Shown: one piece after another, positions 2,933 to 20,101 of the stretch
Layout: every line of letters begins with the position of its first letter
Numbering within the stretch: the first letter of the stretch is position 1
From: Flaviaesturariibacter aridisoli
GTDB taxonomy: Bacteria; Bacteroidota; Bacteroidia; Chitinophagales; Chitinophagaceae
DNA: 64,000 nucleotides
Assembly (NCBI RefSeq): GCF_004343705.1
Contig: NZ_SKFH01000003.1
Span: 1-64,000, forward strand
Reading direction: 5' to 3'
Position numbers and translations under genes: made by a program
The notes under the pieces: generated by a model
What the model was told of the DNA's origin: nothing
Databases searched by the model: none
What the model saw: only the letters and a program-made list of their open reading frames with translations

Positions 2933-3970
2933 TTATCCATAATACCCCACATAATCTCCCGGGTCAAGGGACAGCATGGCACTCATTTCGATGATGCCGG
3001 AGCCGGTACGGGACATGTACTCGGCCAGCATCTGGCGCATCAGTTTTGGTTGCTCTTTGGGAACATCCAGTTCCTCGGGCTCCCGACGGCGGATCCGCTG
3101 TTGGTTAAATTGTTGGATTAGGTATCGTTTCTGGTTGGGTGTGAGTAAGCCAAGATCATCAGCTCGGTACAACAGCGAAATCATCGATACTTTCCACTTC
3201 CGCTTCAGTTCCCCCAGGAGCGGAAGCGTGATTCCCCGCTCAAAGTCTTTCACGATGTGGGCTGCCGGCATCAGGAATTCAGCGGCAAACTCATTTGCCT
3301 CCCGGCTGATATCCCGCTCGGCTGGCACCTCCGTAAAGGTGTGCATGACCAATTGGGCCAGCTCGTAGGCAAGTGAGTAACGCAGTCGGTCGCCAAGCAG
3401 GCTGCTATTGAGGAAAATAACCGGGTATTTGTCCTCCGTGAGCATGCTCCGGCTATCCACACGCTCCGTGCCGAAGGGGAAGCTGTTAACGACGATTCCC
3501 TGCCATTCCAGCGTTCGAACTATATTCTCCACTACCGGAGTACGAATCCCCAATACAAGGCGAAGCTTTTTGGCCGCCTGAGCCGGGGTCTGCTCCACTC
3601 CAACTTCCAGAACTGGAAGTTGCGGAACCGGCTTTTGCAAGGCCCTGGTCAGGAGCTGCACATGGCGGCGCATGATGTTGATCTGCGCTTCTATGGGGGT
3701 TATCAGCTTTACCGGGACGTGCTGGCGTTTCCGATAGGACAAATGAACGGGCACCGGCGATCCATCCTGGAGAAAGAACTGCAATGGGAAGCTGGTAGCC
3801 TCCGAAATAGCGGCTAGCGTTTCCTGACTCACCGGGGTATCTCCCTTTTCTAGCCGGGACACGTTGGCCTTGTGCAAATTGATCTTTTGAGCCAAATCCT
3901 GTTGTGTCAATCCCCTCGCCTCTCTCGCCAGAACCACCATGTTTGGGTTCACCTGTCCCGAAATGTGCAT
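2933..3970 (-). CDS. XRE regulator fused to an ImmA/IrrE-like domain with degenerate metal site
   Basis: 345 residues. Residues about 10-65 form a Cro/CI-type HTH (REARGLTQQDLAQKINLHKA, SRLEKGDTPVSQETLAAIS). The middle to C-terminal part is the IrrE/ImmA fold: LRYSLAYELAQLVMH occupies the place where active members have HELGH, and REANEFAAEFLMPA is the conserved following helix. Both zinc-binding histidines of HExxH are replaced (Y and Q), while the Glu remains, so proteolysis is unlikely by this site. Active relatives cleave phage or ICE repressors. An inverted repeat directly upstream suggests autoregulation. Confidence 0.85.
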   Translation of the reverse strand: MHISGQVNPNMVVLAREARGLTQQDLAQKINLHKANVSRLEKGDTPVSQETLAAISEATSFPLQFFLQDGSPVPVHLSYRKRQHVPVKLITPIEAQINIMRRHVQLLTRALQKPVPQLPVLEVGVEQTPAQAAKKLRLVLGIRTPVVENIVRTLEWQGIVVNSFPFGTERVDSRSMLTEDKYPVIFLNSSLLGDRLRYSLAYELAQLVMHTFTEVPAERDISREANEFAAEFLMPAAHIVKDFERGITLPLLGELKRKWKVSMISLLYRADDLGLLTPNQKRYLIQQFNQQRIRRREPEELDVPKEQPKLMRQMLAEYMSRTGSGIIEMSAMLSLDPGDYVGYYG

Positions 3971-4168: not shown

Positions 4169-5752
4169 CTACTTAGCAACTTTGAAGTTCAACTTAAACA
4201 TCTTGGAAAGTGCATATTCAACAAGTGCTCTAAAATTAGCTAAGTCATCATCGGTTATGGTGACAGTCGCACGTTTGTGCACTAATTCAGATCTTAGCCG
4301 ATAGTAATAATCGATCTTTTGCCAATGTCTTTGAGTAAATGGCATAGTTAACTGCACCTCTTTATGAACGTCAAACCTATTCTTCATTATTGATTCCAAT
4401 CGCGGACCGCTGTAGGCTTGGCTTGACTCATTCAACAAATACTCTTTGAAAGCTATTTCTAGCATGCTGTCAAGAGTTAGCATCGCAATTCGATTCTTCT
4501 GGTCCAATTTAAGCTTAACGATTTCATCAACAGCAATCACAGTTTCATATAACCCCACTACCCAAGGCTTTTGATGTGCTAAACCTTTATTTTGACGCTT
4601 TATTATGTCCCCATACTTCGGTTTAACAATCCTTGGAACCGGTGGTACGTGTAAACGAATAGAAATATCATCGACAACTTCTCGCTGCACCTCTCCAACT
4701 GAATATTTAAATACTGTTTCTGCCCAGCCCCCGCCAGTACTAGCCCTTTTTGCGATCGTCGAGTAGTACACAAGCAAGCGCTCTAGGATGTCCTTTACTT
4801 TTCGAAATAGCTCGTGGTTTGGATTTACTTCAGTTTTACTGGAGTTCCAAGGCATTGCTTGTGAAGCTCCATTCAATTTTATTATAGCTCTTACTATTGA
4901 AACGGAAGGATGGGGATTTCCAATCTTCAAAGGCCGATAGCCAATTTCCGCTCCTTTGTATGCCTTAGTTATTAAGCGGTTATTACAATAAAAATACGCA
5001 CCATACTCTCCTCCTGATGGATCACCAGATCGAACTAAGCCAGCCACAATTTCAACCGCAACTGGACCGATTTTGTCAATTTGTATTGTTGTGCAGATGC
5101 TCCTGGGTTCGCTGCCCGCTGGAAATGACCAACTTTCAAACAACTTCGGTTTTACCGACTTACCGTTAACCGTCAATTCAAAAAGTTTGCCTGATAAATG
5201 AAGCCCATAAATCTCTGCTAACTGAACAATTACATCAGACACTAATTCGTCAGTAAGCTTGATCCTAAGTTTGAATAACTCAATTTGAGTTGTACCAGGA
5301 TCAATATTATCAACCTCATATGCAGGAAAAGACCAAGTAGTATCATCCTTAATCCAATGCTCATCGATTTCAACAAGGAATGTTCTATCACTATTGTAAC
5401 GAGTTGTGATGTTAACCTTTTCAGCAAGTGCAATCACTGAACGTTTAGAACCCACACCGAAAATTCCAATTGACTCTTCTAACCCCGTGTTGGTAGAATA
5501 CCCAGGAGCAACGACCATTTTTAAGTCACTCTCTTTTATACCACCACTGTTATCAACTATTGAAATCACCTGCCTCTCTACGTCCAGATGAAGCGACACC
5601 GAAAGCTTTTGACGTTGGTTTCTTTTTCTCCAATTGTCAATAGCATTATCTATTAATTCACACAATGAACTTTTTAAATGATAGTCGGAGATTATTGAAA
5701 GATAAGTCCGTTTTGACGGGGTGCCATCGAGGTCCGCTATCTTCTTTTTCAT
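4169..5752 (-). CDS. GHKL ATPase with C-terminal HEPN-like segment
   Basis: 527 residues from the ATG at 5752; an earlier TTG adds six residues. The N-terminal GHKL (HSP90/MutL/MORC-type) ATPase has the N box CELIDNAIDN (E32, N36), the G1 box VDNSGGI (about 67-73) and the G2 box GIFGVGSKR (about 96-104). The middle region resembles the S5-like domain of this superfamily. The last 90 residues are helical and contain YRLRSELVHKRA with R487 and H492 in an Rx4H arrangement, as in HEPN ribonucleases or the related nucleotidyltransferase partners. It is the last gene of the dnd cluster, 82 bases after the nuclease gene. I infer an ATP-driven sensor or effector in defence. No terminator is obvious downstream. 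Confidence 0.75.
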   Translation of the reverse strand: MKKKIADLDGTPSKRTYLSIISDYHLKSSLCELIDNAIDNWRKRNQRQKLSVSLHLDVERQVISIVDNSGGIKESDLKMVVAPGYSTNTGLEESIGIFGVGSKRSVIALAEKVNITTRYNSDRTFLVEIDEHWIKDDTTWSFPAYEVDNIDPGTTQIELFKLRIKLTDELVSDVIVQLAEIYGLHLSGKLFELTVNGKSVKPKLFESWSFPAGSEPRSICTTIQIDKIGPVAVEIVAGLVRSGDPSGGEYGAYFYCNNRLITKAYKGAEIGYRPLKIGNPHPSVSIVRAIIKLNGASQAMPWNSSKTEVNPNHELFRKVKDILERLLVYYSTIAKRASTGGGWAETVFKYSVGEVQREVVDDISIRLHVPPVPRIVKPKYGDIIKRQNKGLAHQKPWVVGLYETVIAVDEIVKLKLDQKNRIAMLTLDSMLEIAFKEYLLNESSQAYSGPRLESIMKNRFDVHKEVQLTMPFTQRHWQKIDYYYRLRSELVHKRATVTITDDDLANFRALVEYALSKMFKLNFKVAK

Positions 5753-5834
5753 ATACAAAAAACATTTCAACTAAAATGTCATCGGTAAATAGCAAAACAA
5801 CCCACTGGTTATACACAACAACCTTAAGCCATCT

Positions 5835-6638
5835 CTACTCTTCTTCGAAAATCAGGTCGATTGCGTCACTGTAAATCGGAAGCAGCTCCTTTTCTACGCC
5901 AAATTCCTTCTCGATCATTATTTCTACAATACTTAAACCATTTATCAAAACGATCGGAACGGCTCCTGATTGGAAAGATACATCTTTTGCACCCCTATTA
6001 AAATCAGATGTTGTAAACAAGATTCCTTGCTGAAACTTTCCTTGTATATCACCACGAAACTGGTTCACGATTCGACGGTCCACGAGCTTAGTAGTGTAAC
6101 GTTTGCACTCAAAAGCGACAGGCAACGAAGCCAAACCTATTTTCAACTCGCCATGTCCATCAATTCCGCCATCCTTAGACCTAGCAGTCACAACCACATC
6201 TCTAAAACCGTAGGTTTCCAATAACTTCTTACAAAACTGTTCAAACACGAATGCGTCAAGTTCAAAAAGCTTAGCCAATAATGCCTTTTTGAAAACAGCT
6301 AAATACTGCTCATGAAGCGTCTTCAGGCTGTCGAATGAAGAATCACTTTTGATAGCTGAAGATGGCGCAGGTATGCTTAAAGAAATATCTTTTTTACCCT
6401 TGATCCAATAAGTCCCATCAGCTAAAAAGAGAAAATGCTTGGTCTTATGCGCAGTTGGAAAGCTAAGATTCTCGCTATGCCGTCTTAGTTGAGTTCGAAC
6501 AATGTGTTCCGGATTCTCGGCATTAAAGCGATACAAATCGTCTTCTTTTACTCGTTTATAGATCTCCTGAACACGTAGTGGCTTACCTTCTAACTCTAAG
6601 GCTGCAATTATTGCTTCATTTATGGTTCTTTTTGGCAT
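5835..6638 (-). CDS. HARE-HTH/Mrr-type restriction endonuclease
   Basis: 267 residues in two parts. Residues 4-80 are a HARE-type winged helix (TINEAIIAALELEGKPLRVQ, then HFLFLADGTYWIKG), a module often fused to restriction and DNA-modification-reading enzymes. Residues about 125-250 are an Mrr-like PD-(D/E)xK nuclease: FEQFCKKLLETYGFRDVVVT, DGGIDGHGELK with D160, and FECKRY with E177 and K179 as the expected metal and catalytic residues. It lies 39 bases after the DndE-ATPase gene and is cotranscribed. Mrr-family enzymes cleave modified DNA; here either cleavage of DNA lacking phosphorothioate or of foreign modified DNA is possible. Confidence 0.85.
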   Translation of the reverse strand: MPKRTINEAIIAALELEGKPLRVQEIYKRVKEDDLYRFNAENPEHIVRTQLRRHSENLSFPTAHKTKHFLFLADGTYWIKGKKDISLSIPAPSSAIKSDSSFDSLKTLHEQYLAVFKKALLAKLFELDAFVFEQFCKKLLETYGFRDVVVTARSKDGGIDGHGELKIGLASLPVAFECKRYTTKLVDRRIVNQFRGDIQGKFQQGILFTTSDFNRGAKDVSFQSGAVPIVLINGLSIVEIMIEKEFGVEKELLPIYSDAIDLIFEEE

Positions 6639-8253: not shown

Positions 8254-10320
8254 TTAGTTAAAGTAATCCTGCAAAATTTTTGTTCTATTTCCTGTATTCT
8301 TTAACAGGTAGGTGTTCGCAAGATGATCTTTCATCTTCTTAGCCCTTTTCCCATCAATTTCAGCATTTTGGGCTAATACAATCACTTGCTCCGATAGGTT
8401 CGGATAATAATATTCAATCATATTATCACGGTGATCAAGGTCAAGTCTTCCCAACGGCGTATCGATAAAAACAGGATATTCCACAACGGACTCTTCAAGA
8501 ATCGCTTTCATCAGAGCAGAGATATAAACTTGTTTCTCGCCTTCCGATAATGAGTCCTGGGGGACGCGCTCTCCCCTACAATCATAGAGGTTTACTTCTA
8601 AACCAGCATTTTCTGGCAGAATAGTCACCGAAACTTTATTAATGAAGTCTTTCCTATGCATTAAAAGATTAAGTTCCTTGCTGACAGTATCCCCAAGCCG
8701 ATCGCATTTCTCTTGCTTTTGCTTTCGGACAAACTCGTTAAGTGTGGCAGATAACTTCGTTATATAATTAATTTGTTCCTGTAGTCCTTGAACAATTGTA
8801 ACCTTATCGAGTAAATTTTTATTCTTTTCCTCAAGACTTAAAATCTCAGGCTTCAGTCTATTTTCAATCTCTCCTCGTTTCTCTCCAACGAGGCCCAAAA
8901 CTTTATCACGCTCCCTTTCAGCTTTTTCTTTTTTCTGACGGAATTCATTTACAATATCATCTTGCATTGCGCCTTCAATGCGCCTAATGCTTCTATTAAC
9001 TTCGTTAAGTTCGTTTTCGATCTTATTGAAAGAAGAGAATGCCTCCTCATAAATGTCTTTTGACTTATAAACGATATTTCGATAGAGCTTTTTGACAGAC
9101 TCAATATCATTTCTGCTTAATCCATGCTCAAGCTCCAATTGTACTTCTTTCGCATTTCCGCCAAGCAATAGTTTCTCCAAAAGAGATTCTGCCTTTTCCG
9201 CATAAAAGTTTTTTTGCTTGAATTTAATATCATCGTCAGGGAATGGCTCCTTATTGAATAGTTCTTCTACAAAAGTTTCTGCCTGCTCCTTTATTGCCTC
9301 TTGCCCATATCTTTTGCTGTGGAATTCTTCCTCTATATCGAGTTGATCGACCAACTCTTGAAGATTACCAGCCGATATCGCATAAGGAATTATTTCGATC
9401 AATTCAAAGAGTTTCTCAGATACCGAAGATTTCGAGCTTTCAAGTTGCTCCCTTAAAGAATACAGTTCAGCAATGCTTTGAGTGTTTGGCTTTACACCTT
9501 GTTTAATTAGATATTCGTCGTATGATGCTATTTCCTTATTAACCTGTAATAATCGCTCCTCTAGTTCTTCAAGTTGGGACTCCAAATCGCGTATTCTGGA
9601 GTTTTTGATTTCAATTGCATTTTGATTTGCGTCGATTTGAGCCAAAATAGATCTATCAGCACTTTGCTTTTTCAGATCACTTTTAGTATTCTCAAGATCT
9701 TCTATCAAATTTTCATATACAGATAGTCCGAGAATTTTGCCTAAAGCGTCATTGAGAAATCCACCTTGCTCCCTTATACTAAGGTCAGCAATTGATGCAA
9801 TTCTTTCTGCATTGAAAAAAATGAATTTCGCAGATTCAAGAGGAATAATATAGTCATTTATGAAAAGGCGCTTTTCCTCTTCGTCTTTCACTAGCTCCAA
9901 ATCATCCCCGTCTACTTTTATTGTAAGTTTTTCTTCTCCGGCTTCAATATCATATTCTCTCATTATTTCGATCGTGGCCAACTTCTTCGCGTTCTCCAAT
10001 ATTCCTTCCGACAACTCAACATCTTGGAATATCATGGTGACTGAGAACTTAGTTTTCCCTTTTTCCTTTGCCGCCCAGTTCAAGGATCGATTTAAGTATT
10101 GAGTGTAGTTACCCTTTACCTCCTTTCGAAAGACCTCATCAATAACGCTAATTTTTTCCCCATATAGGCACCAGACTAAACTTACAAGAAATGACGTCTT
10201 ACCTTGTCCATTGATACCGCCTATTAAGATCACATTTTTCTTACCGTAAGTAGAAAAGTCAATCTCATTCAAACCATAATATGGTTTGAAGTTTTCAAGG
10301 AAAACCTTTGCAATTTTCAT
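8254..10320 (-). CDS. dndD: DNA phosphorothioation protein DndD (SMC-like ATPase)
   Basis: 688 residues, close to the family's usual length. It has an N-terminal ABC half with Walker A GINGQGKT (35-42), a long coiled coil from about 210 to 550, and a C-terminal half with the signature SLSEGEKQ and Walker B YPVFIDTPLGRLD, the last being characteristic of DndD. It is thought to couple ATP hydrolysis to DNA handling during sulfur insertion. Its ATG shares one base with the dndC stop, so the two are translationally coupled. Confidence 0.93.
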   Translation of the reverse strand: MKIAKVFLENFKPYYGLNEIDFSTYGKKNVILIGGINGQGKTSFLVSLVWCLYGEKISVIDEVFRKEVKGNYTQYLNRSLNWAAKEKGKTKFSVTMIFQDVELSEGILENAKKLATIEIMREYDIEAGEEKLTIKVDGDDLELVKDEEEKRLFINDYIIPLESAKFIFFNAERIASIADLSIREQGGFLNDALGKILGLSVYENLIEDLENTKSDLKKQSADRSILAQIDANQNAIEIKNSRIRDLESQLEELEERLLQVNKEIASYDEYLIKQGVKPNTQSIAELYSLREQLESSKSSVSEKLFELIEIIPYAISAGNLQELVDQLDIEEEFHSKRYGQEAIKEQAETFVEELFNKEPFPDDDIKFKQKNFYAEKAESLLEKLLLGGNAKEVQLELEHGLSRNDIESVKKLYRNIVYKSKDIYEEAFSSFNKIENELNEVNRSIRRIEGAMQDDIVNEFRQKKEKAERERDKVLGLVGEKRGEIENRLKPEILSLEEKNKNLLDKVTIVQGLQEQINYITKLSATLNEFVRKQKQEKCDRLGDTVSKELNLLMHRKDFINKVSVTILPENAGLEVNLYDCRGERVPQDSLSEGEKQVYISALMKAILEESVVEYPVFIDTPLGRLDLDHRDNMIEYYYPNLSEQVIVLAQNAEIDGKRAKKMKDHLANTYLLKNTGNRTKILQDYFN

Positions 10321-11591
10321 CAGCTTACGATATTTGAAATTTCGGATTTGATTATTTGCTTTATATCAGCCCTTTTCCTTAGAAGTCTCTTATCTTTCTC
10401 GGCGCTCAATAGTCTTTCCAACACTTCATGATCAACTTGATTTCTTTCGCAGAGAGAGTTCAACTCTTCTTTGTGCTTTTTTTTAATCGAGTCACGTTTA
10501 TTCATGGTGTGCAAAATTTCTGAGCCAAATACTCGGTTATATATATCAAACACACTGCGAGAGTAACCGTCAATTGTCCACAAGATTTGAATTGACTTCA
10601 GCTCCTGGGTAGTAATTAACCGCTCCCCGCTATCTTTTTGAGCCTTCAATAACATCGAAAGAATAAGCTCTCGTGTTTCAATATTATACGGACCAGTACC
10701 AGCTGCACCATTTCTCCTTACAGGCATTCGATACTGCTCCTTGTCACGATTTTCGTACAGCCAGTCACGCAAATCAAGTAATGGCTCCAACCACTCCTCA
10801 CCATTATCAACAAGGGCTTCCATGGACTTGTCCTTTTTCACAACCGTACACACCCAACATCCAAATCGACTATTTCCACAAGACGAGGTGGTGGTATCGA
10901 TGACTAACGGGCATTCGCCACCTGTCGCATTTTTATACAATGTGACCAGTTCTCTATTCGAAGCATTATAGGGAGAGGGAACCTGAAGGAGATATTGCCA
11001 GAGCTCTTCGGTTTCCAACGATTTGATCGGACTATAAACGTATGCTAGTTCAAGTTGAGGATGGCGCGACAAGCGTTCATTCAAAATTTGTCTACGATCG
11101 ATGCTTCTTTTTCTGGAGCTACTCTCGTCTTCGCGCGTTCCTAACAAAACAACAACTTCACCGTGCTTACCAACTTGATCTTTTATGTATTTAGTTGTTG
11201 GTGTAATTTTTAATCGCTCCGTACACCAGCGAAAAGTGCTATTAGGGGCAGGGTACCCTTTACCAATTAGATTTACCCAAAAAGAATTTTCTAATTCCGG
11301 AGTGGTTTTAATGACTTTAAACGGAAGCTTCTCCTTCTTAGCAGCTTCTTCGATCTTTTCCAATGTACTGTCGAGCCAAGCAACAACTTTAGGATTCTCT
11401 ACGAGCGTGTCGTTGGCAACGATGTGTACCTCTTTTTTGAGCTTGCTTTTAGGCAATTCCTTAAGTGCGTACCAGACTAACTGAAGCAGCGTGGATGAAT
11501 CTTTACCACCGCTAAATCCAACGATCCAAGGGCGATCATCAATAAGGTACTGGTCCTTTATCTCATCCTTTATAAATCCAACTTTCGACAT
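10320..11591 (-). CDS. dndC: DNA phosphorothioation protein DndC (PAPS-reductase-like, Fe-S)
   Basis: 423 residues. It has the PP-loop SGGKDSS (27-33) that binds ATP and activates the backbone phosphate for sulfur insertion. RWCTERLKITP and TSSCGNSRFGCWVC supply the four cysteines expected for the iron-sulfur cluster of DndC. The next gene is dndD with a one-base overlap, and the preceding large regulator-like gene ends four bases upstream. No cysteine desulfurase (dndA) is present here, so a genomic IscS probably supplies the sulfur, as in many dnd clusters. Confidence 0.93.
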   Translation of the reverse strand: MSKVGFIKDEIKDQYLIDDRPWIVGFSGGKDSSTLLQLVWYALKELPKSKLKKEVHIVANDTLVENPKVVAWLDSTLEKIEEAAKKEKLPFKVIKTTPELENSFWVNLIGKGYPAPNSTFRWCTERLKITPTTKYIKDQVGKHGEVVVLLGTREDESSSRKRSIDRRQILNERLSRHPQLELAYVYSPIKSLETEELWQYLLQVPSPYNASNRELVTLYKNATGGECPLVIDTTTSSCGNSRFGCWVCTVVKKDKSMEALVDNGEEWLEPLLDLRDWLYENRDKEQYRMPVRRNGAAGTGPYNIETRELILSMLLKAQKDSGERLITTQELKSIQILWTIDGYSRSVFDIYNRVFGSEILHTMNKRDSIKKKHKEELNSLCERNQVDHEVLERLLSAEKDKRLLRKRADIKQIIKSEISNIVS

Positions 11592-11595
11592 TTTC

Positions 11596-13827
11596 TCACT
11601 TTAAAAACTCTGTAAACGTATTTTTTTCTTTATGCTGACGCAGCCAATAGCGAGACTGATAGACGTCTACCTTGAACAATTTCATAGCTATTTTTTCCAT
11701 CTCTTCCTCTGTAACCTTCTTTCTGCCAATATACTTTTTAAGCATATCAGGTGCATTTCTTGGAAGCTTTTTAAACCGATGATTCTTAATATTATACTGC
11801 TTCGATTTAAGACCGACGATCGCACCTGGAAGTATTAGGAAACGGTCGTCTGAATCCAACTTAATATTAGTTAATATGTTCTTTTCGTTTGTATCACGAT
11901 ACTTTTGTACATATTCTTCGATTAATAGAATGTGTTTAGGTTCTTCATTTTGTAGTAAGTACTCTTCAACAATGTCACGTATCGTACCTCCGCGGATACC
12001 CTTTTCGTCTTCCCATACTTTCAACCCGTAGGTCGAACTCTTACCAAAGCAAATGATATCAGGAACTCGAAAAATATTTGAGCGCACTGACCCTTCTGAA
12101 TAAAGCCGTTCAGGATATGTTTCCTGAAGTGATTGAATGATTTCTGTCAAATGCGATGGCTTACCCAGTTTTTCCAGAACATCATGAATTAGGTCAGGTA
12201 AGCTGCGATTTGAGTTCTTCGGAAATACTATTTGGCCATCGTAGGTGACAGAAATCCCATATCCAATTTCGAGAACATTTTCAGCAACGCGCTTAATGCG
12301 TTCGAAAAGCAAAGCATCAAATGCAGGGACAAATTGGTAAATGTAACCTTCGAAATTCAGGAATTCATCTTCGCTACGCCGTTCGCTAATTTTAACCTCA
12401 ATGTCTTCTGCAAAAGAATCAAATTCAAAAGCGCTAAACACGTCATTTGCTATTAGAAACGCAAAAGTAGATTGGTCATTTTCGTAGATAAACAAAGTAT
12501 GTGAATGTCTAAATACGCTGCCAAGCGCACGAAAAATAAATGCATCTTGCAAGTCAGCTATCTCAGCCTCAAAATAATTTTTTCTAATGTTAGATAAGTT
12601 GATACAATCTGAAATAGATTGCACATAGGAAGAATTCGCGATTATGACATCTGAAACAGATTTTTCAAACACGAAAAACTTCAGCGCTTCTGCTACCAAT
12701 GTGGGTCTCAATTGTCGAATACGCTCGGGAGAATAACCCAACTCCATAGCTATATCATTCAAATGAGCATTTTCAAAATCTCTTTTCAAAAAACAGGCAA
12801 GCATCATGTGATACTCCGCCTTAATTGGCAAAAAGGATAAAAAGTGATTTGTAAATACCGCAAACAATGGAAACCTTTGTTGAATGAAAGCAACTTCATA
12901 TTCTAACAGTTGCTGTATTGCAATCCCTTTAGATTTTCCAAATGCATTTATAAACAATTGATAGCTTTCGTCCTGCGCGGAAATATTTTTCTGGACTTCA
13001 GAGAATTGTTTTTTTAAATTAGATATTGCCTTATTTAATTCTGAAATTGTCTTTTCACCCGCATTACGAATGTTCCCAATATTGATATTCGTTTTTACGA
13101 ATGATTCAAAAAACGTTTGTAAAGTAAGGTTTGCCTCTCCCACTATCTTGTAAACTACGTTTTGCGCCCGTACAGGAAGACTTGAAAAACAAATTGAAAA
13201 CCATTGTTCTAAAACACCGAGTTGAATAGGTGTAAGTATGCCCAAATCCTCCGTTGCAGAGATTTCGATTTCTTTCCGTTCGTCCTCTGTGCTAAATTTC
13301 CTTATTTTGTCAACAAACAATGAAAGCTCACTTTCAATTCCTTTTGTCCAATTTCGCAACCGTCGAAACGTTCCGTTATCCTGGTAGTAGTCGAGTACTT
13401 GACCGACAAAAGCTAATCGATTTTTTGAAAGAAAATCTAGGGTTTTATCTCGCAAAGGAAAAATGGAGTAAGCATCTTTAACCTTCAAAACTCGATAGCC
13501 AGTACTTCCATTCTCTAGCGCGATTACATTTCTGATAGTACCATCTTCTAAATAGTTCTTGTATTTCTCACAGAGCTGCTCGAGTTCATACTGAGACTTC
13601 CCCCCACAGTTTCGGAAATTGATAAAAGTTCCCTTCGTCTTATAATATTGAAGAACTTGCGAAAGGAAGAACATGCCGTTTTGCTTGAGGACATTACAAG
13701 CTCGGACAGAGAGATTCTCGGCCACTTGCAATTCTTCAACATTTAAATCAGCAATACTTTCAAGCAATTCCACTCTTGTTACAATTAGTTTAGTATAAAC
13801 TGAATAAATCGCCCAGACACCGCCCAA
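11596..13827 (-). CDS. Large protein with RpoA-CTD-like repeats and winged-helix domains, first gene of dnd cluster
   Basis: 743 residues from a TTG; a GTG at 13773 is an alternative start and the first ATG is far inside. The N-terminal part has three copies of a helix-hairpin-helix unit resembling the RNA polymerase alpha C-terminal domain: LSVRACNVLKQNG with NFRNCGGKSQYELEQL (39-85), LRDKTLDFL with LRNWTKGIESEL (125-168), and LPVRAQNVVYKI with NIRNAGEKTISELNKAI (217-268). A sigma-like HTH follows at about 355-385 (DIAMELGYSPERIRQL). The C-terminal third has HARE/delta-like winged helices (SLPDLIHDVLEKLGKPSHL, then GTIRDIVEEYLLQNEEPKHI). No catalytic motif is seen. It may replace DndB as regulator, or be a core subunit recognising DNA. 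Four bases separate it from dndC. Confidence 0.75.
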   Translation of the reverse strand: MGGVWAIYSVYTKLIVTRVELLESIADLNVEELQVAENLSVRACNVLKQNGMFFLSQVLQYYKTKGTFINFRNCGGKSQYELEQLCEKYKNYLEDGTIRNVIALENGSTGYRVLKVKDAYSIFPLRDKTLDFLSKNRLAFVGQVLDYYQDNGTFRRLRNWTKGIESELSLFVDKIRKFSTEDERKEIEISATEDLGILTPIQLGVLEQWFSICFSSLPVRAQNVVYKIVGEANLTLQTFFESFVKTNINIGNIRNAGEKTISELNKAISNLKKQFSEVQKNISAQDESYQLFINAFGKSKGIAIQQLLEYEVAFIQQRFPLFAVFTNHFLSFLPIKAEYHMMLACFLKRDFENAHLNDIAMELGYSPERIRQLRPTLVAEALKFFVFEKSVSDVIIANSSYVQSISDCINLSNIRKNYFEAEIADLQDAFIFRALGSVFRHSHTLFIYENDQSTFAFLIANDVFSAFEFDSFAEDIEVKISERRSEDEFLNFEGYIYQFVPAFDALLFERIKRVAENVLEIGYGISVTYDGQIVFPKNSNRSLPDLIHDVLEKLGKPSHLTEIIQSLQETYPERLYSEGSVRSNIFRVPDIICFGKSSTYGLKVWEDEKGIRGGTIRDIVEEYLLQNEEPKHILLIEEYVQKYRDTNEKNILTNIKLDSDDRFLILPGAIVGLKSKQYNIKNHRFKKLPRNAPDMLKKYIGRKKVTEEEMEKIAMKLFKVDVYQSRYWLRQHKEKNTFTEFLK

Positions 13828-13840
13828 TCAAAACTGATTG
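13825..13840. promoter_or_regulatory. Perfect inverted repeat at the head of the dnd cluster
   Basis: CAATCA-AAAC-TGATTG is a perfect 6-4-6 inverted repeat that overlaps the TTG at 13827. Its location is right for an operator of the six-gene cluster, and the overlap argues that translation starts further in, for example at the GTG at 13773. Confidence 0.45.
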
Positions 13841-15390: not shown

Positions 15391-16584
15391 TTATTCGCTA
15401 AAGATTGCAATAAAGCTTTTGTCGCGTTTATAGACTATGATCTTTTTTATTATCGTTCGAACAAACGTAAGATAAGTAGCAAGGTAGAAGAGACTAATAA
15501 AGATTCCAAAAAAGTAAAACGAAACAAGATTTATTCCGATCAACAACCCTAAATAGGAAATATACTTGGTCAGAAATTCTTTAATAAATGATATTTTGAC
15601 CTTTTCGGCTATTTTGACCACACCTTTTTCAGGCGCATAAAATAAGAAATAGCTTATAATGGTATAGATCAAAAATAGCAGCGCGAGCCATATGTAAGAG
15701 ATCGCAAGATTATGGGTCCGCAAGGTTAGGTACGCATCGAAGAGAATAAGGGTACCTGATATTTCACCAAGATAAGTAGGATGCTTGTCGTTATCGAAAT
15801 CACCTACTAGAACGTACTTGTCCTTCACACAGTTTTCGAAAAAGTCAGGCCGGTCTATTACTTCCCCCATGTAAAAAAGGTTCGCGTATTTGTCCCCTTT
15901 ATTAATGGTGTGAAGATCTTGGTTACGGTAATAAAATTCTGGAATAAAAGTATTAAAAGCTATTTGGTTTTTCTCATAGGTAAGTAGATGGTCGTGGTAG
16001 AATTTGTCATCCGCCGTATCCATCATAACAAGAGGCAAGCTGCGTAAGGTATCGTTGTAAAATAAAGGATATTTGACAAAGTCACCGCCATTTACTGTAT
16101 AGTCGGCTGCTCCATATCGGCCGCTGAATAGTGGCTTATCCGGCTTTCCATTGTGTATAGATAGAAATGTAAATACATTACCTGCCTGTTCAAACGGGGC
16201 TTTCAACGAAGTGTCATCCGGCGATGGTATCGTGAAAGCAATATCACACAGAACCGTTTTGTATTTTCCTTTGTGCTGATTGAGGATCGTGAAAAACTTC
16301 GCAAGCATTTGCCGGTTGGTGATAGGCACACGTCCATAATTCATACCTGTATCATCCACCATAACCTGATCTTTGGAAACGTCTAGACAACAGATACTGT
16401 CTTTAACCGGTTTATTATCGATTCGAAAAATGTTGTGTTTCGTGATAGCAAATGCCTTGAAAAATGCAATCTCATCGAACCTTGTTTTTCCGACATACTG
16501 TAACATGATCGTGATGACAACCAATAGGATTGCATGTGTTACACATACCACTATTTTAAGGGGAAGCCGTTTTGGGTTAAACAT
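15391..16584 (-). CDS. CHASE2-like membrane protein
   Basis: 397 residues. One N-terminal membrane helix (about 10-30), then a periplasmic region of about 250 residues with CHASE2-like features: DVSKDQVMVDD, KTVLCDIAF and KDKYVLVGDFDNDKHPTYLG ('vlvG' then the 'D...T' core). Three to four C-terminal membrane helices follow (LAISYIWLALLFLIYTIISY and two near 345-385). Typical CHASE2 sensors carry a cytoplasmic kinase or cyclase; here the C-terminus is short and basic with no catalytic domain, so it would have to signal through partners. It starts 10 bases after the caspase gene. Confidence 0.75.
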   Translation of the reverse strand: MFNPKRLPLKIVVCVTHAILLVVITIMLQYVGKTRFDEIAFFKAFAITKHNIFRIDNKPVKDSICCLDVSKDQVMVDDTGMNYGRVPITNRQMLAKFFTILNQHKGKYKTVLCDIAFTIPSPDDTSLKAPFEQAGNVFTFLSIHNGKPDKPLFSGRYGAADYTVNGGDFVKYPLFYNDTLRSLPLVMMDTADDKFYHDHLLTYEKNQIAFNTFIPEFYYRNQDLHTINKGDKYANLFYMGEVIDRPDFFENCVKDKYVLVGDFDNDKHPTYLGEISGTLILFDAYLTLRTHNLAISYIWLALLFLIYTIISYFLFYAPEKGVVKIAEKVKISFIKEFLTKYISYLGLLIGINLVSFYFFGIFISLFYLATYLTFVRTIIKKIIVYKRDKSFIAIFSE

Positions 16585-16594
16585 GTTTTGATAT

Positions 16595-19500
16595 TTACCA
16601 TAGCGTCCAATCTATGAGATTGTTTCCTTCTCTCGTTGTCGGCAACTGTCTGCCTTTCGTCATTGCCGGAACGCGTGTATTTACATATTGTGTCAATCCT
16701 GATACCGAACAATGTTCACGATTTAGATATTCAAGAACGCTGGCAGTAAACACAGCATTGGTATCTCCTGTCCTGGCATATTGGTCGGCTGCCGCAGATG
16801 AAATGATCGTTGCACCGGTTCTCCTGCTCACGTCGGTAAACATTTGCTGCATTAGTTCGAATAGCCCTTGATTTGCAACTCCGGCATTTCGCTCTTCTTC
16901 ATCGGCTCTTTGCTGAGCTATCGCATTTAGCTCGTCGATATCCAGATCGTCCGGCAAGTTTATATTGGCTGCTGCAGCGTCTTTGTCGACTTCGCCGCTA
17001 TGACAGGCGTCGAGGAGGAGCACCTTTTGTCTAGGATGAATACTGTCCAACAAATTTTCGAGTGATTCATAAGGTATTCCACCCGATTGCGGATGATCGA
17101 AGTCCACATTATAGCCGGACAAATAGTAATCATAGCTACTGCTAAACAACCCATGACCGGAATAGGCTAAAATAACTTTGTCATTTATCCCTGCTTGCGC
17201 TAGCAACCGCTTTCGGCTGCCGACTTTTTCTACAGTGACACTGTCATTGAAAAGTGTATCGACGATACAATTGGCACCAAGCTTTTCCTTAAACCGGAGC
17301 GCCAAGCTTCTTATGTCATTGACACTCCAATGAAGAGTATGCTCTCCACTTGCGAATCTATCGGTTGCAATGCCCAGAAAGTATGTATAACCCGCCCCCC
17401 TTGTCATATTCTGGTAGGCGACCGGCTTGTGATAACTTTCTGCGCCATTTGAATTTGTGACGGCGGCCTCTATCAAATTGCGGCCTGCCGAAAGCGTAAT
17501 GTCGACCGTGGTATCCAGGTGTTGCGATTTTTGCTTGGCTAGCCCAATTCCGTTGGCACCGTAGACAGGGACGTGATTTATCCAAACATTTAGGCGATCT
17601 AGGGGATGTACTTTGTCGCTTGCTACGATATGTAACCTCAACACGTTGTCAGTCTCTTTGAGGCTGTCCCTATTCATGATTTCGGTAACCGGTGGGTCGT
17701 AGTCATTGCTAAAAGTGGTGGTGTCAAGCCTTAGGCGTTCTATACGTTTCAAATAAGCATGATGTGCAGCAGAGATCAATGCTGTATCTGTGCATCCAAT
17801 TTCCTTAAGCACTTGATCTGGTCTGTTATATTTGACATCTAGCTGCTCAAAGGTAATAGGCTCCAAACTGTCGGTCACATAATGCAATTGTCGAGCGGCG
17901 TTCGGTGTGCATTTGTAGTAGCCGGAGGGCAGAAGAGTAAAGTAGTTAGAATGATTGAATATAAAAGAAGTGTATATTAGTTTACCGTTTTCGGCATTCC
18001 ACAATTTTAAGGTGTGGTCATATGAGCTGGTAACTATCGATTTGCCGGTAGGGGAAAATGCTGCGCCACTGATACCTTCCATTTTTGCTAAAAGAGTGCC
18101 AGTAGCAAGTTCCAGTATCTTCAAAAATCCATTAAGTGTCAAAATGGCCATCTTCGTACGATCAGGCGAAAAAAACAATTCGTCAATATACTCGTCTTCC
18201 AAAAGACGCCCTTTAGCTGCAAGAAAATAACCTAAAAAGCTGCCATTTCCGGCATCCCATTCTCCTATCCAAGGCTTGGCTGTGGAAAAAATAATCTTTT
18301 TGCCATCAGGAGAAAATACCGCGAACTCAATTCTCTCGATGTATTCGAATAAGCTACCCTTCCATGAATGCGTACCATTTAGAACCATGCGTTGAAGTCC
18401 TGTTTCGACATCCCAGATTCTCGCCGTTGAATCTCCCGATGTGGTGACAATTTTTCTGTTATCTGGTGAAAAGGCCACGGAAGTTGCCCTGCGTTTGATT
18501 CCTTTCACGTCTTTTATCAATTTCCAGGTATCGGTGTCCCATAGCTTTACTGTGGAATCTTTTATTGTTGCAATTTCTTTACCGTCGGGAGATAGTGCAG
18601 CAAAATGACCACCCAATTTTTTTAACAATTCTCCGGTTTTACAATCCCAAATTGTAGTGGACTCGCTTTCTTGTAGTATAATCTGCTTATTATTCCGCAA
18701 AAATCTAACTGTCGCAAACCTGGGGGGATTCTTCAGCCTTATTACCATCTTTCCTGTCTCGCCATCCCATAGTTCGATATTTGAAGTGTCTGACCTGATT
18801 GATGTATACTGAGTGACAATGAGTTTACCATCAGGAGAAATATATTCGGGGTAATCTTTTTGCGCAGGGCCTGCAAATTCCTTTGAAACATTGGCAGTCT
18901 TAGTATCCCAAACGCTTATTAAATAATCTCGAGATGCGGTGACTATAGATTTGCCTCCGTGGATAAAAAAAGGATCCCATACCTCGAAGGTAGTTCCGTT
19001 CAACACTGTTAAAGGTAAACCCGTTTCTGAATCCCATATTTTAGCGGTATTATCAGATGAAGAAGTGACGATAAGTTTACCATTAGGGGAAAATCTGGCA
19101 GAGTTGACGTGATCGGTGTGGCCAACTAAATTTTTAAGAAGCACACCCGTTTGGGCATCCCAGATCTTTGAAGTGTGATCAAAGGAAGAAGTAAGAATCT
19201 TTTTGCCGTCAGACGAAAATTCTACGCTGGTAACGTTGGATGTATGACCTTTAAGATCCGCCACAGACGAACCGGTCTGGATGTCCCATATTTTCCCAAA
19301 TAAAAAAGAAGGAGGTTGAGGATCGTAAGCTGAAATAATAAGCACCTTTTTGCTGTCCGGCGAGAATTTAGCTCTTTCAAAAAATTCAGTTTGAAAATGC
19401 GCCACAAGCGCGCCCGTTTCAACATCCCAGATCCGGGCAAATTTATCAGAATAGGTTATCAGCTTTGTGCCATCAGGGGAAAAAATAGCGGTCGAAACAA

Positions 19501-20101
19501 GGCTTTTGTGCGCCAAAGTTTTTAAAAGCGATCTGGTTTCTGTATCCCAAATTTTTAGAGTACTATCTGAAGTACCTGCTATGAACTTTTTACCATCAGG
19601 TGAAAAAGCGGATGAATACTTGGGGCCACGGATATGTAGTGAATCTGTATCGAAAATGTGTTCGCCGGAATTAGCATTCCATATACCAACGGATTGTTGC
19701 TGATTTATTATAGTCAAAACCTTTTTACTGTCAGAAGAAATATCAGCATATCTGCTTCTGGTATGCAATGTTGTAAGTGGCAAGCCTGTTCTGCCACTCC
19801 AGATTTGCATAGTCCCGCTTTCACTCGTAGTAAGAATGATTTTACCGTCCGAGGAAAACCGAGCCGATAAAACCCGATCGGAATGGCCCTTCAAATCCGC
19901 CAGAAACAAGCCAGTCTCTGTATCCCATATTTTTGCTGTTTTATCCGAAGAGCAAGTGACGATCTTTTTCCCGTCCGGAGAGAATTCAGCGTCCCAAACA
20001 TATACTGTGTGCCCCATTGGGACTGTGACCTTCGGAGTTTGTGCAAAGATTAATGACGTTTGAACGAAGAGAAACAAGAATGACGTGCTTATTCTTCTCA
20101 C
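16595..20101 (-). CDS. Secreted WD40-repeat protein with C-terminal caspase-like peptidase
   Basis: 1168 residues from a GTG; residues 1-20 are a signal peptide ending in IFAQ. About 30 to 730 is a series of WD40 repeats with the signature FSPDGKK-IVT-SSDKTAKIWD, probably two seven-bladed propellers. A linker follows, then a C14/metacaspase-like domain from about 905. Its catalytic pair is His983 in AYSGHG and Cys1033 in LLLDACHSGE, both intact, so an active cysteine peptidase is expected. It is the first gene of a three-gene operon. Most bacterial WD40-caspases are cytoplasmic and some act in death or defence; this one appears to be exported, which is unusual. Confidence 0.88.
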   Translation of the reverse strand: MRRISTSFLFLFVQTSLIFAQTPKVTVPMGHTVYVWDAEFSPDGKKIVTCSSDKTAKIWDTETGLFLADLKGHSDRVLSARFSSDGKIILTTSESGTMQIWSGRTGLPLTTLHTRSRYADISSDSKKVLTIINQQQSVGIWNANSGEHIFDTDSLHIRGPKYSSAFSPDGKKFIAGTSDSTLKIWDTETRSLLKTLAHKSLVSTAIFSPDGTKLITYSDKFARIWDVETGALVAHFQTEFFERAKFSPDSKKVLIISAYDPQPPSFLFGKIWDIQTGSSVADLKGHTSNVTSVEFSSDGKKILTSSFDHTSKIWDAQTGVLLKNLVGHTDHVNSARFSPNGKLIVTSSSDNTAKIWDSETGLPLTVLNGTTFEVWDPFFIHGGKSIVTASRDYLISVWDTKTANVSKEFAGPAQKDYPEYISPDGKLIVTQYTSIRSDTSNIELWDGETGKMVIRLKNPPRFATVRFLRNNKQIILQESESTTIWDCKTGELLKKLGGHFAALSPDGKEIATIKDSTVKLWDTDTWKLIKDVKGIKRRATSVAFSPDNRKIVTTSGDSTARIWDVETGLQRMVLNGTHSWKGSLFEYIERIEFAVFSPDGKKIIFSTAKPWIGEWDAGNGSFLGYFLAAKGRLLEDEYIDELFFSPDRTKMAILTLNGFLKILELATGTLLAKMEGISGAAFSPTGKSIVTSSYDHTLKLWNAENGKLIYTSFIFNHSNYFTLLPSGYYKCTPNAARQLHYVTDSLEPITFEQLDVKYNRPDQVLKEIGCTDTALISAAHHAYLKRIERLRLDTTTFSNDYDPPVTEIMNRDSLKETDNVLRLHIVASDKVHPLDRLNVWINHVPVYGANGIGLAKQKSQHLDTTVDITLSAGRNLIEAAVTNSNGAESYHKPVAYQNMTRGAGYTYFLGIATDRFASGEHTLHWSVNDIRSLALRFKEKLGANCIVDTLFNDSVTVEKVGSRKRLLAQAGINDKVILAYSGHGLFSSSYDYYLSGYNVDFDHPQSGGIPYESLENLLDSIHPRQKVLLLDACHSGEVDKDAAAANINLPDDLDIDELNAIAQQRADEEERNAGVANQGLFELMQQMFTDVSRRTGATIISSAAADQYARTGDTNAVFTASVLEYLNREHCSVSGLTQYVNTRVPAMTKGRQLPTTREGNNLIDWTLW

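Follow-up and report, generated by a model that had tools for sequence, protein, structure and literature searches.

The first gene of a dnd-type operon in Flaviaesturariibacter aridisoli encodes a multi-domain protein, here named RPOAL, whose parts resemble the DNA-contacting modules of the RNA polymerase holoenzyme. The gene lies in a window of 64,000 nucleotides, the whole stretch of DNA analysed here (contig NZ_SKFH01000003.1, positions 1 to 64,000), and heads a tight operon in which genes for DndC, DndD, a DndE-HerA fusion, a HARE-Mrr nuclease and a GHKL ATPase follow (Table 1). RPOAL combines helix-hairpin-helix (HhH) units like the C-terminal domain of the RNA polymerase alpha subunit (alpha-CTD) with a sigma-region-4-like helix-turn-helix (HTH) and two winged helices. 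The contact residues of the alpha and sigma parts are kept, no DndB accompanies the protein at the head of its operon, and its association with DndD and DndE/HerA persists where DndC is missing. Our tentative preference, held at a little under even confidence, is that RPOAL may be a promoter-binding regulator that was built from these polymerase parts and replaces DndB.

Among the HhH units, the N-terminal unit 1 matches the Pfam family RNA_pol_A_CTD (PF03118) at residues 29-84 (E 2.4e-6, 27.6 bits versus a cut-off of 23.8) and a profile of RpoA CTDs at E 4e-12; this profile contains 11 rows, 10 of them distinct, from RpoA proteins of related genomes. In the AlphaFold model, residues 24-91 superpose on the Bacillus subtilis alpha-CTD (1z3e_B) with Z 8.5 and a root-mean-square deviation of 2.0 over 62 aligned residues, 31% of which are identical. 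An earlier note on this DNA, made from the sequence alone, had proposed three such units. This number holds at the sequence level, with the qualification that one unit is degenerate. Unit 3 (residues 195-285) reaches 8.8 bits against the RpoA profile, where the best of 1000 shuffled sequences reached 6.1. Unit 2 (residues 100-182) scores 0.6 bits, inside the shuffle range, and was rejected as an alpha-CTD by this direct comparison; it is recognized as a repeat of unit 1 (pairwise score 77, reached by none of 2000 shuffles, the best of which scored 48). The resemblance between units 1 and 3 is weak (score reached by 21 of 2000 shuffles), and none was detected in the pairwise comparison of units 2 and 3 (308 of 2000). 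Most of unit 2 has a model confidence (pLDDT) below 50. The number of HhH units also differs across the RPOAL family, with extra copies in the members at loci L053 and L054.

Unit 1 contains the sequence LSVRACN ... NCGGKSQYE. Its motif residues R42, N45, G75, K77, S78, and E81 presumably correspond to the DNA contacts R265, N268, G296, K298, S299, and E302 of the Escherichia coli alpha-CTD. The L..R..N motif occurs in 12 of 14 family members, compared to 2.1 expected from shuffles. These 14 proteins, used for all family comparisons, comprise 13 from the phylum of the window organism (the window protein included) and one from a Paludibacteraceae metagenome-assembled genome (MAG; L020).

The sigma-like HTH is established at the level of the family by sequence comparison. 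Taken alone, the window protein stays below the cut-off of the Pfam sigma-region-4 family (E 0.2), but 11 of the 14 members match Sigma70_r4 at E <= 0.1 (best 3.7e-7), and a family profile searched against the PDB found SigA and RpoS (best E 2.2e-8). The recognition-helix motif E-R-[VI]-R-Q is present in 13 of 14 members, with 0.01 expected from shuffles, and occupies what we take to be the place of the sigma70 contacts E585 and Q589 with the -35 element.

The structure prediction that the earlier note had suggested as a check shows both an HhH fold (in unit 1) and winged helices. The latter span residues 538-606 and 615-677 and have mean pLDDT values of 83-92 per ten residues. Their description in the note as HARE-like fared less well. 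Winged helix 1 superposes on the RNA polymerase delta subunit (2m4k) with Z 8.4 over 68 residues, but forkhead, histone H1, and other winged helices tie with delta; all structural comparisons rest on VIA-align, and Z values near 8 are common for winged helices. Neither the whole window protein nor its isolated winged helix 1 matched HARE-HTH (PF05066), which elsewhere in the family was found in one of 14 members (E 0.067) and one of 11 isolated domains (0.0026). An hhalign comparison of winged helix 1 with the N-terminus of the HARE-Mrr protein encoded in the window gave a probability of 41% and E 2.8e-4 over 31 columns, and a PDB sequence search returned weak matches to DEK and others (best 0.0021). 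Because other winged helices resemble delta equally and a Pfam match to HARE is lacking, the HARE-like nature of winged helix 1 is a lead that the model suggests. For the whole AlphaFold model, Foldseek returned no match at E <= 0.001.

Consistent with the earlier observation that no catalytic motif is visible, no enzyme family passes for RPOAL in Pfam, PADLOC, or NCBIfam. A match to a phosphofructokinase-subunit family (E 0.0088) is far under the Pfam cut-off and falls inside unit 2. Pfam revealed no kinase or ATPase domain, PADLOC gave no match at all, and the DndB family (PF14072) did not match down to E 1. A BrxA/DUF4007-type domain is not among the Pfam matches listed for RPOAL; no comparison aimed at this domain was made.

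The open reading frame (ORF) of RPOAL begins with a TTG codon, but its homologues start around ORF residue 20-30. Thus, the true start is probably the GTG at 13773 or the TTG at 13767, 54-60 nt inside the ORF. The inverted repeat that the earlier note had reported at 13825-13840 is real, with arms of six bases, a spacer of four, and no mismatch. It overlaps the ORF at its TTG only because this start is probably too early; with either later start, the repeat would fall within the promoter region, a little more than 50 nt before the gene. In total, three perfect six-base inverted repeats precede the probable start within 154 nt, a number that 40 of 2000 shuffles and 30 of 1000 also attain, which is suggestive only of candidate operators. 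As a conserved operator the repeat at 13825-13840 was rejected, since it is absent or different upstream of all five homologues compared. The rest of the window contains one more similar site, with two mismatches, as expected by chance.

RPOAL is found at the head of a DndD-DndE/HerA module in four of the 14 family members (the window, L013, L015, and L053). The DndD and DndE/HerA proteins of these four modules form a group of their own on a long branch with support 1.0. Identities within this group are 39-48% for DndD and 44-51% for DndE/HerA, as compared to 27-33% with other clusters. The grouping rests on unrooted trees and these identities, for which six of the seven clusters of the sister clade were used (all but the broken L086). 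The set of RPOAL-linked modules was partly found through RPOAL itself, and the one in genome G250 solely in this way; the DndE/HerA profile (A4) consists of the four RPOAL-linked sequences themselves, whose top E-values with it are therefore by construction. The seven sister-clade clusters (L080-L086) all contain DndC (in pieces in L086) and six of them contain DndB, the exception being G699, where no DndB was found. None has RPOAL, and the matches listed for the seven genomes in the scan with the full RPOAL profile are at background level. Conversely, DndB is missing from the four RPOAL-bearing clusters. The idea of the earlier note that RPOAL occupies the place of DndB thus applies to gene content (DndB in none of four versus six of seven clusters) and not to position, as the six DndB-like proteins of the sister clade are encoded downstream of DndE/HerA. 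With 355-454 amino acids these are about half as long as RPOAL (743 amino acids), in line with the twofold difference in length stated in the note. A DndB-family protein (3.2e-34) is encoded in the window genome on contig C43 (L088, 7627-9069), away from the dnd genes; the ORFs preceding it look by eye like XRE/ImmA and PIN-like proteins. In genome G084, a contig other than that of the module holds a DndB-family match that stays below the cut-off. In L086 (6409-11376, genome G445), the dnd cluster is broken, and DndC, DndD, and DndE/HerA are each in pieces.

DndC (TIGR03183, E <= 1e-3) is absent genome-wide from G084, G250, and G475, which are three of the four genomes with an RPOAL-DndD-DndE/HerA module. 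All three DndC-less modules have an ORF of 60-65 codons between RPOAL and DndD that overlaps the end of RPOAL by 4-17 nt. The encoded small proteins match Sp-DndD (2e-10, 1.2e-6, and 1.1e-3, the last under the Pfam cut-off) and score 19.3, 42.0, and 42.3 bits against a profile of seven DndC tails, including that of the window DndC, where the best of 3000 shuffles reached 12.0. Since they match this profile and the window DndC ends with a homologous stretch, the small proteins most likely represent a detached DndC tail, judged by sequence. In the simplest reading they would dock to DndD. The persistence of the module where DndC is lacking means that RPOAL is not generally a subunit of sulfuration. 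The proposal in the earlier note of a sequence-recognition subunit for modification is thus not supported, given these three modules and the other family members, which are encoded with other systems or alone.

In searches with the window RPOAL, eight of 395 genomes of the phylum, its own included, had matches at E <= 0.001; three of these (G104, G123, and G394) contain only a single-unit protein or RpoA itself. A family-specific profile of the C-terminal part found six of 395 genomes at 1e-12, again including the window genome. With the full profile, at least 11 members were detected in 395 genomes of the class (G000, G084, G575, G475, G656, G441, G639, G469, G080, G424, and G584), and a broken remnant in G605 was among the matches listed. 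This profile matches 386 of the 395 class genomes at E <= 0.001, mostly through alpha-CTD- or sigma-like background. The background matches listed lie at profile positions 17-74 or around 230-290; ten loci of the former kind were confirmed as RpoA, and the latter are called sigma-like from their profile position. Given the few members in the scans of 395 genomes, the distribution of RPOAL is sparse and patchy, as far as these profiles detect it. Not included in the 14 proteins compared were L052 (G575, cut by the contig end), L021 (a 373-residue match in a Candidatus Absconditabacteria MAG), L059 (the G605 remnant), L061 and L062 (144 and 282 residues), the stand-alone proteins L017 and L018 (183 and 180 residues), and L019 (RpoA itself). 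Set A3 contains 13 rows (without L063) and set A5 contains 11 (without L060, L057, and L063). The RPOAL scan of genome contigs gave only two loci. Searches by tblastn with the window RPOAL against plasmid and phage record collections, and with two homologues against plasmid records, returned no match; viral contigs gave no relative, and a plasmid search for DndE/HerA gave two distant partial matches. Additional sampling recovered two of 195 genomes in the class of G211, both already known, one of ten in the order of G475, and one of 191 in the order of G084, the latter two being G475 and G084 themselves. No new member was thus gained, and the neighbourhood sample stays small. The stand-alone alpha-CTD-like HhH proteins of 180-183 residues (L017:9582-10133 and L018:9455-9997; phmmer to RPOAL 3e-13 and 2e-12) belong to two genomes of one genus with partly similar neighbours and are possibly core genes there.

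Ten of the 14 family members are not located beside DndDE. The earlier note had considered that homologues might mainly occur elsewhere and have a known function; the first part applies to these ten, and the second does not, as they come without known function. In L020, RPOAL follows BrxL by 5 nt as the last gene of a BREX operon that encodes BrxP (PADLOC E 2.7e-170, cut by the locus end), BrxC (4.3e-139), PglZ (2.7e-84), and BrxL (1.9e-197). Because BrxP is present, which marks type 4 BREX (PMC12839542), this operon is assigned to that type. In L055, the genes that precede RPOAL are one of Type I restriction (3.4e-223) and one for a YgjP-like metallopeptidase (2.7e-59); in L060, they encode RmuC (1.1e-68) and a BRO-N protein, and a weakly matching JetC-like ATPase (8.9e-6) is nearby. 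In L058 it is encoded two genes after an SRA-HNH protein (1.2e-40), adjoining an ORF that by eye appears NUDIX-like. Inspection of the ORF lists by eye revealed no defence neighbour in L014, L016, L054 (close to a contig end), L056, L057, and L063. As these adjacency counts have no random-gene control, only the link of RPOAL with DndDE is treated as firm. Genes flanking the L013 module encode a recombinase of the tyrosine type (8.1e-8) and a transposase of IS1 (2.7e-15), and the L053 module has a recombinase of the resolvase type (2e-14) next to it, which is in keeping with mobile defence islands.

If RPOAL acts as a promoter-binding regulator, its alpha-CTD-like units would grip the minor groove of A+T-rich DNA that precedes a promoter, the sigma-4-like helix would read a -35-like element, and the delta-like C-terminal winged helices might contribute contacts with DNA or polymerase. 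Located on promoters, that of its own operon first, RPOAL would exclude polymerase and thereby set the level of the downstream defence genes, which is the task of DndB in other dnd clusters. The kept alpha-CTD and sigma-4 contact residues suggest promoter DNA as the natural ligand, and we infer that RPOAL binds DNA, prefers promoters, and represses rather than activates. This regulator is favoured because of the promoter-reading residues, the position at the head of the operon, the exchange with DndB, the existence of solo members, and the precedent of Salmonella, where DndB regulates dndCDE and its own gene via two promoter palindromes (PMC4507180). The lack of an enzyme domain also counts for a regulator, and the six members without a recognized defence neighbour fit one that is self-sufficient. 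Several observations, however, weigh against this interpretation. RPOAL is far larger than an autorepressor needs to be, and in L020, L055, and L060 it is the last and not the first gene of its run, which is odd for an operon regulator. The upstream repeats are not common to the family: three of five homologue upstream stretches lack any six-base repeat, and those of L013 and L015 contain five repeats each, which differ in sequence from those of the window (274 and 50 of 1000 shuffles, respectively, have as many). Among the four modules, RPOAL is only 28-35% identical and thus less conserved than DndD and DndE/HerA; this faster evolution suggests a partner or target engaged in an arms race. 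Furthermore, an action on DNA is suggested by the helicase-associated domain that was matched in two of the 14 members and by the C-terminal CxxC...H of the L058 member (9129-11009), a doubtful HNH (Pfam HNH_2 E 0.037, under the cut-off).

These features would be better explained by a DNA-targeting or scanning subunit like BrxA/DUF4007, SspB, or DndG. With its row of HhH, HTH, and winged-helix domains, such a subunit would hold the target DNA, perhaps at the promoters of an invader, and bring the DndD-DndE/HerA motor, BREX, or a restriction enzyme onto it. We regard this alternative as possible but doubtful. It would account for the size of RPOAL, its last-gene positions, its fast evolution, and the accessory helicase-associated and possible HNH domains. 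It is also consistent with the tight coupling to a distinct, long-branched group of DndD-DndE/HerA modules and with the detached DndC tail between RPOAL and DndD in three of them, which implies that RPOAL may dock where DndC did. Scanning subunits with multiple winged helices have been proposed for BREX (PMC12839542). However, a targeting subunit does not explain the solo genes (six of 14 as judged by eye), the kept residues match promoter-element contacts, and the partners are unrelated machines, for which a single docking surface would be hard to keep. Alternatively, RPOAL could be an effector that on infection shuts down transcription of the invader or the whole cell, either by sitting on promoters or by competing for polymerase with sigma and alpha, while the remaining genes sense or deliver. 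The polymerase-like composition and the solo copies agree with such a role. So does a Pfam scan of five ORFs flanking the L013 and L053 modules, which identified three recombinases or transposases, left two without match, and revealed no nuclease or modification enzyme among the five; RPOAL may then be the sole non-motor component there. An effector role is nonetheless distinctly improbable, as the HARE-Mrr nuclease is already an obvious effector in the window, L015 has a PLD-like protein encoded 364 nt upstream, and no sensing or activation domain was found in RPOAL. A subunit that confers specificity on phosphorothioation or regulates it could be expected directly before DndC, as in the window, and the L020 member is encoded in an operon with BrxP, type 4 BREX being described as phosphorothioation-based (PMC12839542). 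This explanation is very hard to reconcile with the lack of DndC in all three other genomes that have the module and with most other members, which were not seen beside sulfur genes. Finally, the modules could represent a Dnd-derived, sulfur-free system, in which the catalytic part of DndC was lost, its tail persists as a DndD-docking protein, and RPOAL was taken up instead. The SMC-like ATPase and the HerA pump would then bring RPOAL, as a mimic of promoter-reading polymerase parts, to actively transcribed DNA of an invader in order to find or silence it, a scenario that we consider unlikely.

RPOAL shares traits with several known systems. A study by Aravind and Iyer in Cell Cycle in 2012 reportedly described bacterial HARE-HTH domains fused to alpha-CTD HhH and sigma region 3/4 HTH domains and predicted that these proteins block RNA polymerase binding. 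This is the domain combination of RPOAL, for which, however, sequence gives the HARE assignment weak backing; added here are the links to DndDE-HerA, type 4 BREX, and Type I restriction-modification. DndB likewise accompanies DndD-DndE clusters but differs in family and length, as detailed above. The similarity to the delta subunit (RpoE) concerns winged helix 1 and is shared by many unrelated winged helices. PglW of type 2 BREX has an alpha-CTD-like domain followed by three winged HTH domains, akin to RPOAL, but it is described as also containing a kinase and an inactive STAND domain (PMC12839542), for which RPOAL has no kinase or ATPase counterpart. Partner genes of the same kind as those of RPOAL, namely a DndE-HerA fusion beside a DndD-related ATPase, appear as HerA clade 3 in PMC10853773, whose main text mentions no neighbouring protein with an alpha-CTD; the same text describes HARE-REases in dnd clusters. 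Neither RPOAL beside DndDE or type 4 BREX nor the equation of the small protein with the DndC tail was found in the open-licence literature searched, with figures and supplements outside the search. If correct, the proposed reading links a protein made of the polymerase's own promoter-reading parts with several unrelated DNA-defence machines and hints at how dnd-type operons that lack DndB are controlled. Moreover, the DndD-DndE/HerA core could then outlive sulfur modification and keep the DndC tail as a separate protein.

Table 1. Coordinates of RPOAL, its predicted domains, and associated features (window positions unless a locus is given).
Feature	Position	Strand	Remarks
RPOAL, RNA polymerase-like multi-domain protein	11596..13827	-	ORF of 743 aa from TTG
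HhH unit 1, alpha-CTD-like, residues 25-97	13537..13755	-	Pfam and structure; keeps L-S-V-R-x-x-N and N-C-G-x-K-S-x-x-E
HhH unit 2, degenerate repeat of unit 1, residues ~112-180	13288..13494	-	low model confidence
HhH unit 3, diverged alpha-CTD-like, residues ~200-280	12988..13230	-	keeps L-P-V-R-x-x-N and A-G-E-K-T-x-x-E
Sigma-region-4-like HTH, residues 337-384	12676..12819	-	recognition helix S-P-E-R-I-R-Q
Middle alpha/beta region, helix-helix-strand-strand stretch, residues ~408-535	12223..12606	-	AlphaFold model; no fold assigned
Winged helix 1, delta/HARE-like (lead), residues 538-610	11998..12216	-	model superposition
Winged helix 2, residues 615-677	11797..11985	-	model superposition
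Perfect 6+4+6 inverted repeat, candidate operator	13825..13840	.	CAATCA-N4-TGATTG, 0 mismatches
DndC sulfurtransferase, 423 aa	10320..11591	-	4 nt after RPOAL; PP-loop SGGKDS; PADLOC 2.4e-151; TIGR03183 over cut-off
DndC C-terminal tail, Sp-DndD (PF20306) homologue	10329..10460	-	Sp-DndD E 0.003, under cut-off
DndD ABC ATPase, 688 aa	8254..10320	-	TIGR03185 3.1e-84, over cut-off
DndE fused to HerA/FtsK-type ATPase, 523 aa	6678..8249	-	PF08870 1.8e-9, AAA_10 2.8e-9
HARE-like N-terminus and Mrr restriction endonuclease, 267 aa	5835..6638	-	Mrr_cat 1.2e-20; HARE-HTH 1.7e-5, just under cut-off
GHKL (HATPase_c_3) ATPase, 533 aa	4169..5770	-	6.1e-12
Small proteins (Sp-DndD) of DndC-less modules	L013:12944-13123, L015:12172-12366, L053:10197-10394

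At the distal end of the window operon, the genes for the HARE-Mrr nuclease and the GHKL ATPase (4169-6638) look like a local addition to the cluster; neither is among the phmmer matches listed at the other three RPOAL-DndD loci. Just beyond the cluster, positions 2933-3970 encode an XRE HTH fused to an ImmA/IrrE-type peptidase (4.7e-15). Such fusions are frequent companions of mobile or defence genes. On the other side of RPOAL, a CHASE2 protein (15391-16584; 3.3e-8) adjoins a gene for a protein with WD40-like repeats (16595-20101), which also contains the motif LLLDACHSG that we presume to be caspase-like.

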